A stretch of DNA of 24,456 nucleotides from a virus. Shown piece after piece: positions 1,992-8,192 of the stretch (its first letter is position 1; the number at the start of each line of letters is the position of its first letter). The stretch lies in the IMG/VR virus record IMGVR_UViG_3300028361_000120, positions 1-24,456 of that record; one strand, given 5' to 3'. Position numbers and translations under genes: made by a program. The notes under the pieces were generated by a model. It was not told the DNA's origin and made no database searches. It worked only from the letters and a program-made list of their open reading frames with translations.

Positions 1992-2843
1992 CTAGAACTC
2001 AACACCACTACCCACATCCATCACTTCAAGACCTAGTTCTTCCCACATTCTGATAACTTTTGGACGGTCATCAATAACCAGGGTAACATTCATGTCTTTA
2101 AGATAGGTGTTGTAGATTTGTTCCTTAACAATAGTGTCATCACGGGTGTCTCCCTTACGTCTCATGAACATCATGAACGGTGATGACAGTGGAACGTTCT
2201 TACGTAGCCACTCTTTTGTTACTTGTTTGTAATCGTCTGGTCGGGCGGTCACAAAGATAATCTTCTTACCTTGTGCTTCAAGTTCTTGGAGATGACCGTA
2301 CACCTCTTCACGTACTGTGTCCTTATCCATCTCACTAAAGAATCCTTGCCAGTCCTTAGTCTCTCCCTTCACATAGTGTAGTCTATGTTTGATATCAGCA
2401 ATTGTGCCGTCAATATCACAGACCACAACATCTCCCTCTACTTTCTTTAGACCATACTGAATGGCCATGTGGTTGATAACGTCAGCACCAACACTCTTGT
2501 CTCGCTGACTGTCTCTTAGTATACACGTTTCTACGTCTGTGTCAACCTCTTTGATAACAAACTCTACCATATTTTCTTTGGCAACTTCTCTCCACATCAC
2601 CTCGTTCTTAGGATTTATGTTGCAGTCATCCACTACAACATGAGGTTTACCTGAGGCAAATAAGAAGCTTACTATTTTCTTCTCTAGTGCTACTACTATC
2701 TTCTCGTTCTTAGGGGAGTACTCACCGTAGTTAAGCATTTCTCTGAGTAGGTCACGGTTGACCCTTGGTATACCTAGCTCCTTAGCTACTGTGCTCTTCC
2801 CTGATGCTGGTAATCCCTTCATCATTACTAACTGTCTGTTCAT
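1992..2843 (-). CDS. T4 Pnkp-like polynucleotide kinase / 3'-phosphatase
   Basis: The 283-residue protein has the domain order of phage T4 polynucleotide kinase-phosphatase (about 300 residues). An N-terminal P-loop kinase has GLPASGKST at 10-18, and a C-terminal HAD phosphatase has VVCDIDGTIAD (nucleophile and acid D143 and D145), then VTARPDDY and VIDDRP. Such enzymes remove 3' or cyclic phosphates and phosphorylate 5'-OH ends so that cleaved RNA can be religated, classically tRNA cut by host anticodon nucleases. The partner ligase is directly upstream. The reading frame overlaps the 3' end of the ligase gene by 62 bp, and the P-loop is encoded within that overlap. Starting at the second Met (MMKGLP) would shorten the overlap but keep the P-loop in it. 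Confidence 0.92.
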   Translation of the reverse strand: MNRQLVMMKGLPASGKSTVAKELGIPRVNRDLLREMLNYGEYSPKNEKIVVALEKKIVSFLFASGKPHVVVDDCNINPKNEVMWREVAKENMVEFVIKEVDTDVETCILRDSQRDKSVGADVINHMAIQYGLKKVEGDVVVCDIDGTIADIKHRLHYVKGETKDWQGFFSEMDKDTVREEVYGHLQELEAQGKKIIFVTARPDDYKQVTKEWLRKNVPLSSPFMMFMRRKGDTRDDTIVKEQIYNTYLKDMNVTLVIDDRPKVIRMWEELGLEVMDVGSGVEF

Positions 2844-3771
2844 ATGTATCTGCTACGCTTATAGTTCCTAGTAAAATATCTTTATAGATTTGAATTGCTT
2901 TCTTGTGTGAAAGATTACACAACCTCTTGAAGTCAAGGGCTGGTACTTTCTTAGCAATAGCCCATATCTCCTCTGTCAACATGTCGTGGTAGGCAGTGTT
3001 GATGATACGTGGTATGTGTTCAAGGTCTAGCTTCTTCTCCTCTAATGGTTGCAACTTCTGCATTATCTTCTGCACCCGTGCTAGTGTCATAAACTTATTG
3101 ACCACCCACATTTCATGGTATGTATCACTGTGCTTATTGTTACCACCGAATGTGATACCGTTGTTCTCTTTGAAATTCTGAGTTACAATTTTAGCATACG
3201 TGTTGTCACCGAACTTGTCAATGAACTCCTCGTTCTTTAAGACGATACCTTCACCCTCTACACCAATGGTTGACTTACCAACGAACTCCATCAGTTGTTC
3301 TTCAGTTGGATTAGTAATCATACCGTGGTAGTTAGGTGTTCTAATTCCATAGTGCTTAGCGTAATCTCTCACATCATACTTTGGCATACAATCTTCTTTA
3401 TCTTTGTCTGTAATTAGTGAAATGTCAAACAGATAGAAGTGTTTAAAGTTTGTTTCAGTGTAGTGTATTGTGTGTTTAACAAGCCACTCACCATAAAGTC
3501 TTAGTCTTGGGCGTTCAGTCAACAGGGCTTTGATACCCTCATGTCCTGCTACATACTCAAGGAAACCATTGAAGTAATTGTTACCCTCTACTGGATTCAT
3601 TACGTCACTACACAGTGTGTTGTTACGTGAACCAATAGCAATCTTACCATCCTCTATCCATATCTGGGCATTAGCACCGTCAATCTTTTCCTCTACGTGT
3701 ACATCACCTGACAATATACCATCGGTCTCCTCCTTTCCTAGACGATGTACCTTAGGGTATCGTTTAAACAT
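2782..3771 (-). CDS. Rnl2-family RNA ligase
   Basis: The 329-residue protein is close in length to T4 Rnl2 (334). It carries the nucleotidyltransferase signature EEKIDGANAQ, with K29 as the expected AMP-accepting lysine. Other visible ligase motifs are GSRNN (near 48-52), LYGEWL (motif III region), EGIVLKNEE (motif IV) and YAKIVTQNFKE (motif V). The family seals 3'-OH/5'-phosphate nicks in duplex RNA. With the overlapping downstream Pnkp-like gene it forms an RNA-repair unit. The last 20 codons overlap the kinase gene in another frame. The ATG at 3771 is preceded by AATAATCCAGT with no SD. Rnl2 rather than DNA ligase is chosen from the KIDGAN motif and length. Confidence 0.9.
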   Translation of the reverse strand: MFKRYPKVHRLGKEETDGILSGDVHVEEKIDGANAQIWIEDGKIAIGSRNNTLCSDVMNPVEGNNYFNGFLEYVAGHEGIKALLTERPRLRLYGEWLVKHTIHYTETNFKHFYLFDISLITDKDKEDCMPKYDVRDYAKHYGIRTPNYHGMITNPTEEQLMEFVGKSTIGVEGEGIVLKNEEFIDKFGDNTYAKIVTQNFKENNGITFGGNNKHSDTYHEMWVVNKFMTLARVQKIMQKLQPLEEKKLDLEHIPRIINTAYHDMLTEEIWAIAKKVPALDFKRLCNLSHKKAIQIYKDILLGTISVADTYEQTVSNDEGITSIREEHSS

Positions 3772-3777
3772 ACTGGA

Positions 3778-4056
3778 TTATTTCTTAGTCTTAGTAATCT
3801 TACGGTACCCTGATACTTGCTCTTCCACATACTCTACCTTAAGAAACTCTTCCAGCTTACTGAGTCGGAACTCAACGCCATCGGTGTATTCTATAAGGTC
3901 TGCGATTAGTTTTGCTTGAGCACGTTGATTACCAAGGACTGACTTATGGCCGTCAGACAAACTAGCGAATGTTTCCTTTAGCTTACTGTTGATTGTTGTG
4001 TCTATCATAGACTGCACCTGTGGGTTGATTGTGTTCTTCTTATTCATTCCAAACAT
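3778..4056 (-). CDS. hypothetical protein, 92 aa
   Basis: A 92-residue protein that I do not recognise. It starts MFGMNKKNTINPQVQ, is mostly helix-prone (SMIDTTINSKLKETFASL, then VEFRLSKLEEFLKVEYVEE), and ends in the basic tail KITKTKK. It lies between the ATP-grasp gene (1 bp after its stop) and the RNA ligase gene (6 bp before its start), so it is cotranscribed with both. The start follows TTAATTAACTAAT, a typical A/T-rich start here. The charged helical character could suit a small accessory or coiled-coil protein, but the sequence shows no function. Confidence 0.75.
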   Translation of the reverse strand: MFGMNKKNTINPQVQSMIDTTINSKLKETFASLSDGHKSVLGNQRAQAKLIADLIEYTDGVEFRLSKLEEFLKVEYVEEQVSGYRKITKTKK

Positions 4057-4057
4057 A

Positions 4058-4954
4058 TTAGTTAATTAAATTATTAAAGGCAGTGGTGTATGCGTCTACT
4101 GAGTCCGTGTTCCCTAGACCAGGGGCACTGTTAACCTCTAGTACAAACACCTCTTTCTCCTGATTCATAATGATATCTACTGCTCCAAAGTCTAGCTTCA
4201 ACGCTTCGATAGCGTCAATTGCTAACTCCTCTATACGTTCTAGTCGCTTAAGATTACCTGTTCGGTAAATCCAATTGGACTCTAGGTTACGAACGTCTGC
4301 TTCCTCTCCCTCTATTGTCTCCACCTCACCATCATCGTCAAGTCGGCGGGACTTCTTCTGGTATAAAATAACTTCTCCTCTTAACACATGAACACGGTAC
4401 TCTCCCCTGTTTTCAACACCTTTGGTATACAGCGGTGCATCTGGGACTTCCACTTGTTCTACGAGTTCCAACTCACCTAGGTGGCCAAGAACTTCTTCTG
4501 ATAAATCATCATACCCGTGGCCAGCAAGTGTGCCAGCGATATCTGTGAGTACAGCAACATGCTCATGCTCAGTCATATCGACTGGCTTAATCACCTCGAT
4601 ACCCTCACCGCTGTGGCCCGTCAGTTTGTTTCTAACAAAAACGGTAGCACCTTCTTCAATCCAAGTTTGTGCTGTGTGCCTGTCCTCTGTAAAGTCTACA
4701 ATTGGGACTGCATTTTCATATAACTCTTGAAAGGTCATCAACTTATTGGAAGCTACTGCTACTGCTTCTGGTTGATTGAGCATAGGGACTCCAGCCATTC
4801 TCTCTGTACGACGTGAGTTACCCCAGTTAATAACGGTATGCCCTGCTCGATAGCGGTACCTTGAGTTCTCTGTCTTAATAATAACAGCATCAAGGCCAGC
4901 TTTTAAAATGCGGGCTGATTGTGAACCTACTTTATACGGATAGATTTTAAACAT
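4058..4954 (-). CDS. ATP-grasp ligase (RimK/YheCD-like)
   Basis: The 298-residue product begins MFKIYPYKVGSQSARIL. An in-frame TTG at 5047 is possible in principle, but it lies inside the -35 box of the - strand promoter at 5019-5047, so the ATG at 4954 is chosen. ATP-grasp features visible are the glycine-rich loop VRNKLTGHSGEGIEV (108-121), the central EYRVHVLRGEVILYQKK (185-201) and the Mg-binding C-terminal motif DFGAVD (D260) with VLEVNSAPGL (E273, N275). The family uses ATP to form an acyl-phosphate and ligate it to an amine, often making peptide bonds. It is part of a cluster with an amidotransferase, two COOH-NH2 ligase-type proteins and a cyclotransferase, which points to synthesis of a peptide or amide tag. 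The substrate is unknown. Confidence 0.88.
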   Translation of the reverse strand: MFKIYPYKVGSQSARILKAGLDAVIIKTENSRYRYRAGHTVINWGNSRRTERMAGVPMLNQPEAVAVASNKLMTFQELYENAVPIVDFTEDRHTAQTWIEEGATVFVRNKLTGHSGEGIEVIKPVDMTEHEHVAVLTDIAGTLAGHGYDDLSEEVLGHLGELELVEQVEVPDAPLYTKGVENRGEYRVHVLRGEVILYQKKSRRLDDDGEVETIEGEEADVRNLESNWIYRTGNLKRLERIEELAIDAIEALKLDFGAVDIIMNQEKEVFVLEVNSAPGLGNTDSVDAYTTAFNNLIN

Positions 4955-5018
4955 AATTAGTTTCTTAGTGTGTAATAGACGAGGATAAGCATTGTTAGTA
5001 AAAATATAAGCTCCATCT

Positions 5019-5047
5019 ATTGTATCATACTTGACCTTAAAAGTCAA
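5019..5047 (-). promoter_or_regulatory. sigma70-type promoter for the ATP-grasp gene
   Basis: Read on the - strand, TTGACT (5047-5042) is followed by a 17-bp spacer and TACAAT (5024-5019), with an extended -10 TGA directly before it. Transcription would begin near 5012, giving a leader of about 58 nt to the ATG at 4954. It rules out the longer TTG-initiated reading frame of the ATP-grasp gene. Confidence 0.75.
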
Positions 5048-5108
5048 GCTTTTAATTTATAAACTTTAACCTAGTTATAGGCCAGTTAGAGTCAAGGTGA
5101 CAGGGGGC

Positions 5109-5137
5109 TTGACAAAAATACAATAGTATGATATACT
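5109..5137 (+). promoter_or_regulatory. strong sigma70-type promoter driving a non-coding transcript
   Basis: TTGACA (5109-5114), a 17-bp spacer and TATACT (5132-5137) with an extended -10 TGA. It points away from the ATP-grasp promoter and into about 390 bp with no + strand gene. Its spacer is identical at 14 of 17 positions to the spacer of the late promoter at 13312-13340, including the block AATAGTATG, so the two are probably copies of one phage promoter type. Confidence 0.82.
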
Positions 5138-5143
5138 AGTATT

Positions 5144-5510
5144 CTGTCCTTTGATTAGGAATAGGGACGAAATTATCGGGGGCGTAGAATCTACTACATA
5201 ATCTGTGAGACACCACAACCCCAAGTCTTATCTACCTGCTTGTTAGGGTAGACTAGGCACCGCCATGTTCTTCGGAACGGAAAGCGTAGACCTTGAGTGA
5301 TATTACTATACTCATACTGTTCGGATGGCCGATAGCAGTAGCGTCTACCTAACAAGAAGTGTTCACTGGTAACTAAACATCATACCGACTAGAATAACTT
5401 GTGTCCTGAATCATAGTAATCTCATAATAGTGGTACTAATTAACCTTCACCTCATCTCTGATGAGGAAAGAAGTGTATCTAATAATCTTACATAACCCGA
5501 CTAGAATAAC
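5144..5510 (+). ncRNA. candidate structured non-coding RNA (boundaries approximate)
   Basis: No gene lies between 4955 and 5536, but a strong + strand promoter ends at 5137. The predicted RNA has a 14-bp helix with one bulged G, between CTTGTTAGGGTAGAC (5239-5253) and GTCTACCTAACAAG (5343-5356). It encloses three hairpins: GTTC-TTCG-GAAC (5267-5278, a stable UUCG tetraloop), TGAGT/ACTCA (5294-5298 with 5310-5314) and CTG..TCGG-ATGG-CCGA..CAG (5317-5338). A local alternative pairs TCTACC (5231-5236) with the same GGTAGA, so a switch between two folds is possible. A further hairpin CCTCATC-TCT-GATGAGG lies at 5450-5466. No intrinsic terminator is evident, so the 3' end is uncertain. I recognise no known RNA family. 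Confidence 0.7.
5385..5510 (+). repeat. pair of 14-bp direct repeats
   Basis: CCGACTAGAATAAC occurs at 5385-5398 and again at 5497-5510, 112 bp apart, both preceded by a CATA-containing stretch. They flank the 3' part of the candidate non-coding RNA, including the CCTCATC hairpin. They may be protein-binding sites or remains of a duplication. Confidence 0.8.
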
Positions 5511-5536
5511 CTATAGCATATAGTAAGGGTATCTTA

Positions 5537-5860
5537 TTATACAACTATCATATCATACTTCTTAATAATATCATCTACATTCAAGGTGTTAGCAGAGACA
5601 CATACCTCACCCTTAGGTGTATCCTTCCAGTCATTCTCTGGTTTATGATAGTGTCTCCTCTCATCTTGATTGAGGTGTCTCTTCTTCATTGTTTCTTTAA
5701 CCAAGTCTTTCTTTTCTTTTTGTCCTTGTTCTTGCATCTCAGCTCGCTGTTGATGTCGTAACAATTGTTCTTCTCTGAAATTGTGCACAACTGCCCCCCA
5801 GTCATTATTCATATTCCCCAGTCCTACATCAGGCATTTGTATATCATCATTAGGATTCAT
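5537..5860 (-). CDS. hypothetical polar protein, 107 aa
   Basis: I start this gene at the ATG at 5860-5858, which lies just inside the end of the amidotransferase gene (stop at 5852-5850), the usual translational-coupling arrangement. A longer version starting at 5926 would overlap the upstream gene by 77 bp and is less likely. The product begins MNPNDDIQMPDVGLGN, has a central Gln/Glu/Lys/Arg/His-rich segment (LLRHQQRAEMQEQGQKEKK) and ends TLNVDDIIKKYDMIVV. It is very polar and probably partly disordered. I do not recognise it. Its place directly after the amidotransferase makes it a candidate substrate or adaptor of the peptide-ligation cluster, which is inference only. Confidence 0.72.
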   Translation of the reverse strand: MNPNDDIQMPDVGLGNMNNDWGAVVHNFREEQLLRHQQRAEMQEQGQKEKKDLVKETMKKRHLNQDERRHYHKPENDWKDTPKGEVCVSANTLNVDDIIKKYDMIVV

Positions 5861-7184
5861 ATCTGTTTGCGTTAGCGTATGTGTTATTAAAGTCCTCCAT
5901 CGCTTCACACAGTTCAAGCATCTCAACTACATCATCGGGTGAACAGTTCAACTTAGAGATTGATTCCTCTATGGTGTGCTGTTCAGCTATTAGCTCATTA
6001 TCTTTGTTAGAGTAATTCTTTTCCAATAACATACCGATGTCATGAGAGTTACTAAGAATATCCCTTTGTGTTGAGAGCTTTGCGTGCTTGGTGCACAGGT
6101 CTTCTAGTATTCCTCTAACCTTTTCTTGTGCATCAAGTTCGTCCTGCTCATTCTGTCTCTGTCCGAAACCCATAAAGTTTTGCTTAGGTGGTTCCTCTGG
6201 GCACAGTCTCTTACTGTCTAAGGGTTGTCGTTCGTCTTGATACTTAAGATACTTCTTAGGTACATAGTACATTACCTTATCAATGTTCACAGATTCAAAG
6301 GCGTTCATTGGAATCGTTTTAGCATAAGCTTCAGAGTAGGTGTAGTATCTATTCTCAAGACTTGCATAGTCCTGACGAATTAGCTCTTGTCTCTCTGGTG
6401 TGTAAGTCGTACGAACAACAGGCTTTACATCCATAGCTTCATCTACAGGGAAGTCCTGTTGATACAGTTGAGGGTCTCCGATATCATAACTGTAGATTTT
6501 CATAGCACTGATGGAATCACCATGCTCAGAAGCAAGGCCGTGGTACTTGCGTGTCTTAACAGTAGTCAATGGTCGTCCTTGGTTGCGACCATAGTAGGTC
6601 GATACAACTTGGTCTGTCCCCTTTAGTAGCCTGACAGCAATGAAAGCTATAGGCCCTGTGGTCTCCAGCTTATCTAGCTTGTCGTCAAGGTGACGAGCCA
6701 TCTCAATAGCAAGACACTCAGAGTCATTGAACTTACCAGCTCTTACTGATACGACTTCTTCTTTACCGTCAGTGTGCACATTGATAGTCTGCACCTCATA
6801 CTCTGACTTGTACTTATACCCCAGCTTCCCATGAGCAACGTTCATGGTGTGTTGATTATGAATCTTACCGTTGTGCATAAGAATGTAATCAAACTCTAGC
6901 TCTGCATGACTGACCCGCATAGGGTGAGTAGTATTTAGAGTGTTTTCTGTTGAGGTAGGGAACCTATGATGAAACAGAATGTTGGATGCTTGTTCCTCCT
7001 TTAGGTAGTCAAGCATCGTTGCTTCATCCTTTGAACGCTTGATACCTAATAACATACCCTTATCATCTATCGCTAAGTAACCGTACCCAGCCTTACCTCG
7101 GTGGTCTTGCTTCTTGTAAAGCTTTATTACCTGTTGGCCAACAGGCTTACCTTTCTTCGACCATATTGCTATTAGTCCGCACAT
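5850..7184 (-). CDS. class II (Ntn-type) glutamine amidotransferase
   Basis: The 444-residue protein starts MCGLIAIWSK, placing the catalytic Cys at position 2 after Met removal, as in all class II GATases. Further hallmarks are HHRFPTSTEN (72-81, glutamine-binding Arg74), LMHNGKIHN (oxyanion hole N105-G106) and DSECLA. These domains hydrolyse glutamine and deliver ammonia to a linked acceptor site. The last 190 or so residues follow no synthase domain that I recognise and contain helical, charged segments, so the ammonia or glutamine acceptor reaction is not known. It sits 3 bp downstream of an amidoligase gene, and such GATases occur with ATP-grasp and COOH-NH2 ligases in phage clusters of the phiEco32 type. 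Transfer of an amide or glutamine to a peptide is inferred. Confidence 0.88.
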   Translation of the reverse strand: MCGLIAIWSKKGKPVGQQVIKLYKKQDHRGKAGYGYLAIDDKGMLLGIKRSKDEATMLDYLKEEQASNILFHHRFPTSTENTLNTTHPMRVSHAELEFDYILMHNGKIHNQHTMNVAHGKLGYKYKSEYEVQTINVHTDGKEEVVSVRAGKFNDSECLAIEMARHLDDKLDKLETTGPIAFIAVRLLKGTDQVVSTYYGRNQGRPLTTVKTRKYHGLASEHGDSISAMKIYSYDIGDPQLYQQDFPVDEAMDVKPVVRTTYTPERQELIRQDYASLENRYYTYSEAYAKTIPMNAFESVNIDKVMYYVPKKYLKYQDERQPLDSKRLCPEEPPKQNFMGFGQRQNEQDELDAQEKVRGILEDLCTKHAKLSTQRDILSNSHDIGMLLEKNYSNKDNELIAEQHTIEESISKLNCSPDDVVEMLELCEAMEDFNNTYANANRYES

Positions 7185-7187
7185 AGT

Positions 7188-8192
7188 TTATTTAATTTTA
7201 GTATTAGAATAGTAACCGAATAATCTCTTGACATAATCCTGTAGAAGCTGGTCATCTAAGATAGCAAGGAATTCTTGTGGTGTTCCTTTCATAGACTTCA
7301 AGTCATTAAACTCCATGACCTCAAGTTTATCTGCTATCGTTTGGTGTAGCCGTAGCCACAGTAGCACCTTACTGGCATCTACTGTTCCACCATGTGACCG
7401 TATCTCCAGTGTGCCATGCTTATGCCAGTAACAGTGTAAGTTTACGTTGTGATAACGTGAGTTACAGTAGTCACCACCTGGCTGGCGGCCTTTGTACCAT
7501 ACACTCTTGATATCGTCTTCTGTTTTACAGTTGGCAATATCTGCCAGCTCATAGGAATTACCAAGAGGTATAGAGTACATGTTGCCGTACCTGCGTGACT
7601 TAGATACAATGTTCTCCATAACGTCAGAAAACAGAGTGTAAAAGTAAAATGAATTTTGCAACCATTTAAATCGGTCTGGTCTTTCTAACCAGTAGTAAGT
7701 GTAGTTGAGTCGTGGCTTTCTTTCTAATTGTACCTTAGAGTAGTAGTTAATGTTCTCTATCTTAGTTCTTACGACACCATCTATACCCTGCAATGTACGG
7801 TTGCTTGAAACTATCTCTAGTATTGTAGCTGTGCTAACCTCCTTCTTAATCCTGTTCGACACAGCGATAACCTTTATGTCTAACTTTGGTGCAATCCTCG
7901 ATGAGCGTAGATTACCACCCTCTTTCTTGCCGTCTAAGTGTATGTGCATAGAAGTCTTTGTGCTTTCTGTTGATGCACCTCCACTGAACAGTATTCCACA
8001 TGCCCTCTTAACTTCTGCTTCACCTCCAGCACCTTGCAGTGGCTCTGAGACATATTCTCCAGCGTACCTAAGCGGTCGCAACGAACCATCGTGTATAATT
8101 TTAAGCTCTCCTTTTAATTTATTTAGTTGCTTCTCTGTTTCGGTAGAGAACTCTATCTCTAGTCCAAACCTTCGTTCTGATTGTAGAAACAT
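7188..8192 (-). CDS. amidoligase (COOH-NH2 ligase, glutamine synthetase-like fold)
   Basis: The 334-residue protein matches the Amidoligase_2 type. It has an N-terminal FGLEIEF (9-15), then TSMHIHLDG (80-88, H83 and H85), and a C-terminal HGTLEIRSHGGTVD (259-272) followed by a Trp-containing helix SKVLLWLRLHQ. In the family these acidic and His residues bind ATP and Mg within a glutamine synthetase-like core, and the enzyme joins a carboxylate to an amine. It lies 4 bp downstream of a second, different COOH-NH2 ligase, so two ligation steps may be carried out in succession. The start follows GATAATATT. Family is well supported; the substrate is unknown. Confidence 0.85.
   Translation of the reverse strand: MFLQSERRFGLEIEFSTETEKQLNKLKGELKIIHDGSLRPLRYAGEYVSEPLQGAGGEAEVKRACGILFSGGASTESTKTSMHIHLDGKKEGGNLRSSRIAPKLDIKVIAVSNRIKKEVSTATILEIVSSNRTLQGIDGVVRTKIENINYYSKVQLERKPRLNYTYYWLERPDRFKWLQNSFYFYTLFSDVMENIVSKSRRYGNMYSIPLGNSYELADIANCKTEDDIKSVWYKGRQPGGDYCNSRYHNVNLHCYWHKHGTLEIRSHGGTVDASKVLLWLRLHQTIADKLEVMEFNDLKSMKGTPQEFLAILDDQLLQDYVKRLFGYYSNTKIK

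Follow-up and report, generated by a model that had tools for sequence, protein, structure and literature searches.

A strong promoter that faces a leftward operon, with no gene ahead of it, raises the question of what is transcribed from it and what the product may do. The locus lies in a virus record of 24,456 bases (the window), whose left part is read on the − strand and encodes a primase/helicase, Pnkp, an RNA ligase, an ATP-grasp protein, a glutamine amidotransferase, two amidoligases and a GGACT protein. The + strand encodes the terminase, portal, ribonucleotide reductase small chain and capsid, the portal and capsid being labelled on the basis of position and conservation.

Relatives were sought with the capsid, which gave five records, and with an ATP-grasp alignment, which gave five records of at least 50 % identity and many distant ones besides. 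L108, found via ATP-grasp, is a short phage piece within a bacterial MAG contig (REAV01000024.1). This contig appears chimeric, as the phage DNA stops inside the ATP-grasp gene (L108 ~1085) and bacterial genes come next, so the host label of L108 is unreliable. A Pfam search with the small gene to the right of the locus gave no match.

Table 1. Positions of the features described in this work (window coordinates unless a record is named)
Feature	Position	Strand	Remarks
ATP-grasp gene (RimK-like)	4058..4954	−	left neighbour of the RNA; start codon 4954 from aligned starts of four homologues
Divergent promoter TTGACT-17-TACAAT	5019..5047	−	serves ATP-grasp and the genes after it; present too in G002, G005, G006
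Promoter TTGACA-17-TATACT, extended −10 (GTATGATATACT)	5109..5137	+	11/12; TG precedes the −10
Type A noncoding RNA	5144..5515	+	conserved extent; ~370-400 nt
Pseudoknot I	5172..5222	+	Pa 5172-5176/5198-5202 interleaved with Pb 5179-5182/5219-5222; Pa invariant
Hairpin P3	5227..5257	+	5227-5236 with 5247-5257; C5253 bulged; 10-nt loop; re-formed in G002
Pseudoknot II	5239..5356	+	P3 loop 5239-5247 with 5348-5356; 9/9 pairs in G002, 3 double changes
Hairpin GUUC-UUCG-GAAC	5265..5276	+	invariant, window and G002
Helix P4	5286..5348	+	5286-5291 with 5343-5348; encloses P5 and P6; 5/6 pairs kept in G002, one lost
Hairpin P5	5294..5314	+	5294-5298 with 5310-5314; 11-nt loop; 3/5 pairs double-changed in G002
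Pseudoknot III	5302..5420	+	P5 loop 5302-5309 with 5413-5420; 8/8 pairs kept, one double change
Hairpin P6	5317..5338	+	5317-5319/5336-5338 and 5321-5324/5329-5332; one double change
Direct repeat, copy 1 (CCGACUAGAAUAAC)	5385..5398	+	read directly
Hairpin P7 (3' domain)	5445..5473	+	5445-5448/5470-5473 and 5450-5456/5460-5466; one double change, flanks invariant
Direct repeat, copy 2 (CCGACUAGAAUAAC)	5497..5510	+	read directly
Small gene, KRHL...WK...GE	5537..5857	−	right neighbour, tail to tail with the RNA; kept in G002, G004, G005, G006
Type B RNA	L030 (G004) 4420-4812	−	pseudoknotted, own covariation
Type B RNA	L032 (G006) 4569-4758	−	pseudoknotted, own covariation
Type B RNA	L108 127-342	−	pseudoknotted, own covariation
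Stem-borne gap element	L250 2371-2500; L249 2350-2488; also L255, L256, L257, L259, L260

The promoter and the stretch in front of it

The + strand promoter is the top sigma-70-type site of the 3000-8000 scanned. It agrees at 16/17 positions with a phage-wide consensus, TTGACA with TATGATATAAT. Each genome has 2-5 copies of this consensus, which lie ahead of the terminase genes, at the RNA locus and, on the opposite strand, ahead of ATP-grasp. The sites at the same locus in G002, G004, G005 and G006 match at 16-17/17, and the promoter is retained in each relative with a readable site (five genomes including the window). The near-consensus promoter pointed out in an earlier, sequence-only reading was thus confirmed, and + strand transcription is expected to start at about 5144. 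Matches to Pseudomonas and Pelagibacter phages were confined to the promoter stretch and were set aside as relatives of the RNA; in the one Pseudomonas record inspected the matched stretch is a promoter that serves a unit of tRNA and structural genes.

The stretch after the promoter, taken earlier to be gene-free on the + strand, proved to be so: 5138-5540 contains no + strand ORF of 50 aa or more. A cis-regulatory leader or riboswitch was rejected, since no + strand gene lies on the RNA or closely after it. Both flanking genes are read from the − strand and the next strong + unit is near 13.3 kb.

Conservation and extent of the type A RNA

A homologue of the RNA of the window, designated type A, was found in G002 (22.9 kb) at 80 % identity in the search, with an E value of 4e-98. 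When aligned, the two RNAs are 81.5 % identical over 368 positions, in comparison to 70.4 % for the adjoining ATP-grasp gene, 64.8 % for the amidotransferase gene and 67.1 % for the end of the small gene; the RNA ligase and terminase genes reach 78.7 and 77.4 %, respectively. Two long stretches, 5183-5221 and 5258-5285, are invariant. The end at 5510 given in the sequence-only reading fell a little short of the conserved RNA, which goes to about 5515. The 3' end could perhaps reach ~5560; a terminator was looked for and not found. The 3' domain also carries a 14-nt direct repeat, both copies of which are altered identically in G002 (CCAGCCAGAATA).

Fold of the type A RNA

The structure was curated by hand on the sequences of the window and G002. 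Among its 71 pairs 59 are the same in both, 10 are double-changed, 1 is changed on one side and 1 is broken. All three pseudoknots have the H-type order. In pseudoknot I, which holds small hairpins in its interior (5184-5194 and the 5204-5217 region), Pb contains one compensatory pair, G5179-C5222 being replaced by A-U in G002. Pseudoknots II and III are built alike: from a hairpin loop of 10-11 nt, with 2-3 nt left free on the 5' side, 8-9 nt pair with a strand ~100 nt downstream and abut the 3' strand of the hairpin. The hairpins themselves are maintained by replacement, P3 being formed in G002 at the same place from other letters (CUUAUGUC/GACAUAAG) and the P5 stem changing from UGAGU/ACUCA to CAGGU/ACCUG. 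One alignment gap beside 5348 was set by hand, as the aligner otherwise divides the 3' strand.

A 14-bp long-range helix (5239-5253 with 5343-5356) had been proposed from the window alone. Its outer part, about 9 of the 14 bp, is conserved and is the helix of pseudoknot II, whereas the inner part (5248-5253 with 5343-5347) is not kept in G002, and 5343-5348 fits 5286-5291 better. The long-range helix and a local one (5231-5236/5247-5252) had also been read as two exclusive folds, but they share only G5247 and the remaining pairs coexist as an H-type pseudoknot. The predicted UUCG-tetraloop hairpin is present in both genomes.

Covariation and folding energy

The earlier reading was open to refutation by a lack of covariation among homologues; the test was run and covariation was found. 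The helix 5239-5247/5348-5356 had been named beforehand from one sequence, and among control helices from coding DNA with as many hit pairs only 5/7885 match its 9/9 pairs and 3 double changes. The minimum-energy fold, which is blind to pseudoknots, gave a modest compensatory excess (0.20 versus 0.098 +/- 0.046). A column-shuffle significance of 1/300 was dropped as too lenient after coding controls and is not used, since generic counts are just as high in coding windows from both genomes.

A chance structure in a variable intergenic region would be in line with the ordinary folding energy of 5144-5540 (z = −0.63) and with the generic compensatory-pair count, by which the RNA region cannot be separated from coding DNA of the same genomes. 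Such an origin is nevertheless extremely improbable in view of the named helix, the conservation of both RNA types above their neighbours and the separate covariation of type B (see below). The support for a structured RNA comes from conservation and covariation and not from folding energy. For type A, known from two genomes only, comparison of the sequences makes a structured RNA well supported.

Probable exchange of the RNA between related phages

In otherwise collinear genomes, all of which retain the amidoligase operon, the content of the locus varies between type A, an unrelated-looking type B and no RNA. Type B is carried by G004, G006 and L108, likewise upstream of ATP-grasp. Types A and B have the same promoter at their 5' ends. 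In G005 (L029, ~4700-4830, − strand) the promoter is kept and the RNA is absent; ~50 nt with a short hairpin (AGAGTCTAAGACTCT) are followed by the antisense of the small gene. Since relatives may have this RNA, another knotted one or none at a single place, the RNA looks like an exchangeable gene.

The type B cores of G004 and G006 are 77.2 % identical, in comparison to 65-66 % for ATP-grasp, the amidotransferase and the small gene. In L108 similarity to G004 ends after 216 nt, so the 3' part is variable. In the named structure 96 % of cells are paired across the three sequences and 8 pairs show double changes. Shifting the partner by 1-3 columns lowered these figures to at most 47 % and 1 double change, a control that favours the structure because it was drawn from those same sequences. 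A 37-codon frame in the type B RNA of G004 was rejected as a gene, being interrupted in L032 and L108. In the space from its RNA promoter to ATP-grasp (363-761, +), L108 also has a gene for a 132-aa protein that contains sigma-70 region 4 (Pfam PF04545, E 3e-15); no relative of it was found in the other genomes.

Homology between the sequences of types A and B is borderline at best, as 25/500 shuffles score equally high. Covariance models of type B (R1) and type A (R2) found neither the other RNA nor anything in G005, and gave no matches in some 60-90 more distant ATP-grasp phage loci. The best R2 match outside type A (L145, E 0.036) falls within a coding sequence and was attributed to chance. 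When viral contigs were scanned for patterns of the type A, type B and shared cores, only the known genomes were recovered, along with chance matches in coding DNA that were judged by eye, blastn or model R2.

Comparison with known RNA classes

Rfam searches at gathering and permissive thresholds gave nothing relevant for either RNA type. ARAGORN found no tRNA or tmRNA in the window or in nine relative loci. ROOL is ~580 nt long, and tmRNA has ~350-400 nt and several pseudoknots. The RNA of the window resembles tmRNA in size and in its several pseudoknots, but the tRNA-like domain and the tag frame are absent (ARAGORN, Rfam) and this assignment was rejected.

ROOL and GOLLD are ornate, pseudoknotted RNAs of phages and prophages with no known protein partner or function; GOLLD often exceeds 800 nt, and both are often, though not universally, near tRNA islands (PMC12286853). 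The likeness to the RNA of the window lies in the phage-encoded, pseudoknotted structure with no task assigned. Membership was rejected, as ROOL and GOLLD are much longer, no Rfam covariance model matched and no tRNA island adjoins the locus.

A ribozyme or intron-like RNA, able to process itself or to act as a catalyst, could be suspected from the compact core with its multiple pseudoknots and long invariant stretches. It is very improbable, as Rfam ribozyme and intron models, group I intron included, gave no match when E values were allowed to reach 10 for the window region and 5 for the loci of two relatives, and there is no exon to splice. With their own promoter, conserved structure and no conserved ORF, as expected of independent noncoding RNA genes, types A and B are two undescribed structured phage RNA families.

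Possible role of the RNA

Judged from the sequences compared, 5144 to ~5515 is probably a gene for a free-standing, trans-acting structured noncoding RNA that is exchangeable between phages. It would be transcribed from a strong host-type promoter alongside the divergent ATP-grasp promoter and, with its body held by three H-type pseudoknots, would fold with no further input. The RNA may act in trans through its shape, with which it would bind or sequester a protein or RNA of the host (or of the phage). The presence of type A, type B or no RNA in collinear genomes suggests an accessory, exchangeable element, and the A/B exchange and the loss in G005 favour a role in host interaction over a housekeeping one. 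Counted against this explanation are the small numbers of genomes (two for type A, three for type B), the ordinary energy, the missing terminator and the promoter without RNA in G005.

The promoter of G005, kept ahead of only ~50 nt and a hairpin, would suit a convergent transcription unit, in which + strand transcription or its product limits read-through from the leftward operon (small gene, amidotransferase, amidoligases) into the separately promoted ATP-grasp operon and the structure is secondary. The promoter faces the operon and the RNA lies tail to tail with the small gene, as such a unit would have it. We regard this as unlikely, since it needs neither three compensating pseudoknots nor conservation above the coding neighbours, and two RNA types would be pointless variety.

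The trans-acting RNA might also be a partner of the adjoining ligase enzymes, which is possible because their operon is kept in all these genomes. A tie to the Pnkp and Rnl2-type ligase pair, suggested in the sequence-only reading, is unsupported, since type B RNAs occur in genomes without the pair and G005 has the pair without RNA. The pair lies at 1992-3771 of the window and occurs also in G002 and G005; no homologues were found in G004 and G006, the remaining operon of which is collinear. On the whole, the promoter-driven, conserved and structured + strand RNA of that reading held, whereas its exclusive folds and the repair link did not.

The RNAs are small enough for easy synthesis, probing and deletion. 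That knotted RNAs of unrelated appearance replace each other behind a single promoter, in one gap of the operon, offers a natural experiment on the purpose of such phage RNAs, which for ROOL and GOLLD is still an open question.

The same gap in LUZ24-like phages

LUZ24-like Pseudomonas phages have a peptide-ligation gene order similar to that of the window (PMC3890496). In these phages, UFV-P2 and tf, an unannotated stem-borne element with a variable apical part was observed between the small gene and ATP-grasp. The LUZ24-type and tf elements match neither models R1 and R2 nor Rfam. The LUZ24-like element shares with the RNA of the window the gap of the same amidoligase operon, structure and variability from phage to phage, but it is ~120 nt on a long stem and no opposing promoter was recognised.

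The element in Bruynoghevirus, UFV-P2 and tf would fit a functional RNA of the − strand, with the operon transcript folding in the gap that separates the small gene from ATP-grasp, and covariation by itself barely distinguishes the strands. For the window this is improbable: both RNA types begin exactly at the consensus + promoter, the promoter of the − strand comes after the element (5047), and the pairs themselves fit the + strand. In type A a C-G pair closes the tetraloop, giving C(UUCG)G, and the curated pairs include one G-U and no A-C; in type B two G-U pairs are kept in 3/3 sequences.

More speculatively, and with a rather low probability, the gap could be a cross-genus cassette site in which rapidly exchanged RNAs (A, B, LUZ24-like stems, none) share one job. 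If so, the RNAs might, for example, work against a host target that varies, or they might be the partner of the peptide-ligating enzymes. Among individual phages, EPa87 has the gap element without the variable top, and the element of Ab22 shows possible kissing loops, CCCAUG/CAUGGG.
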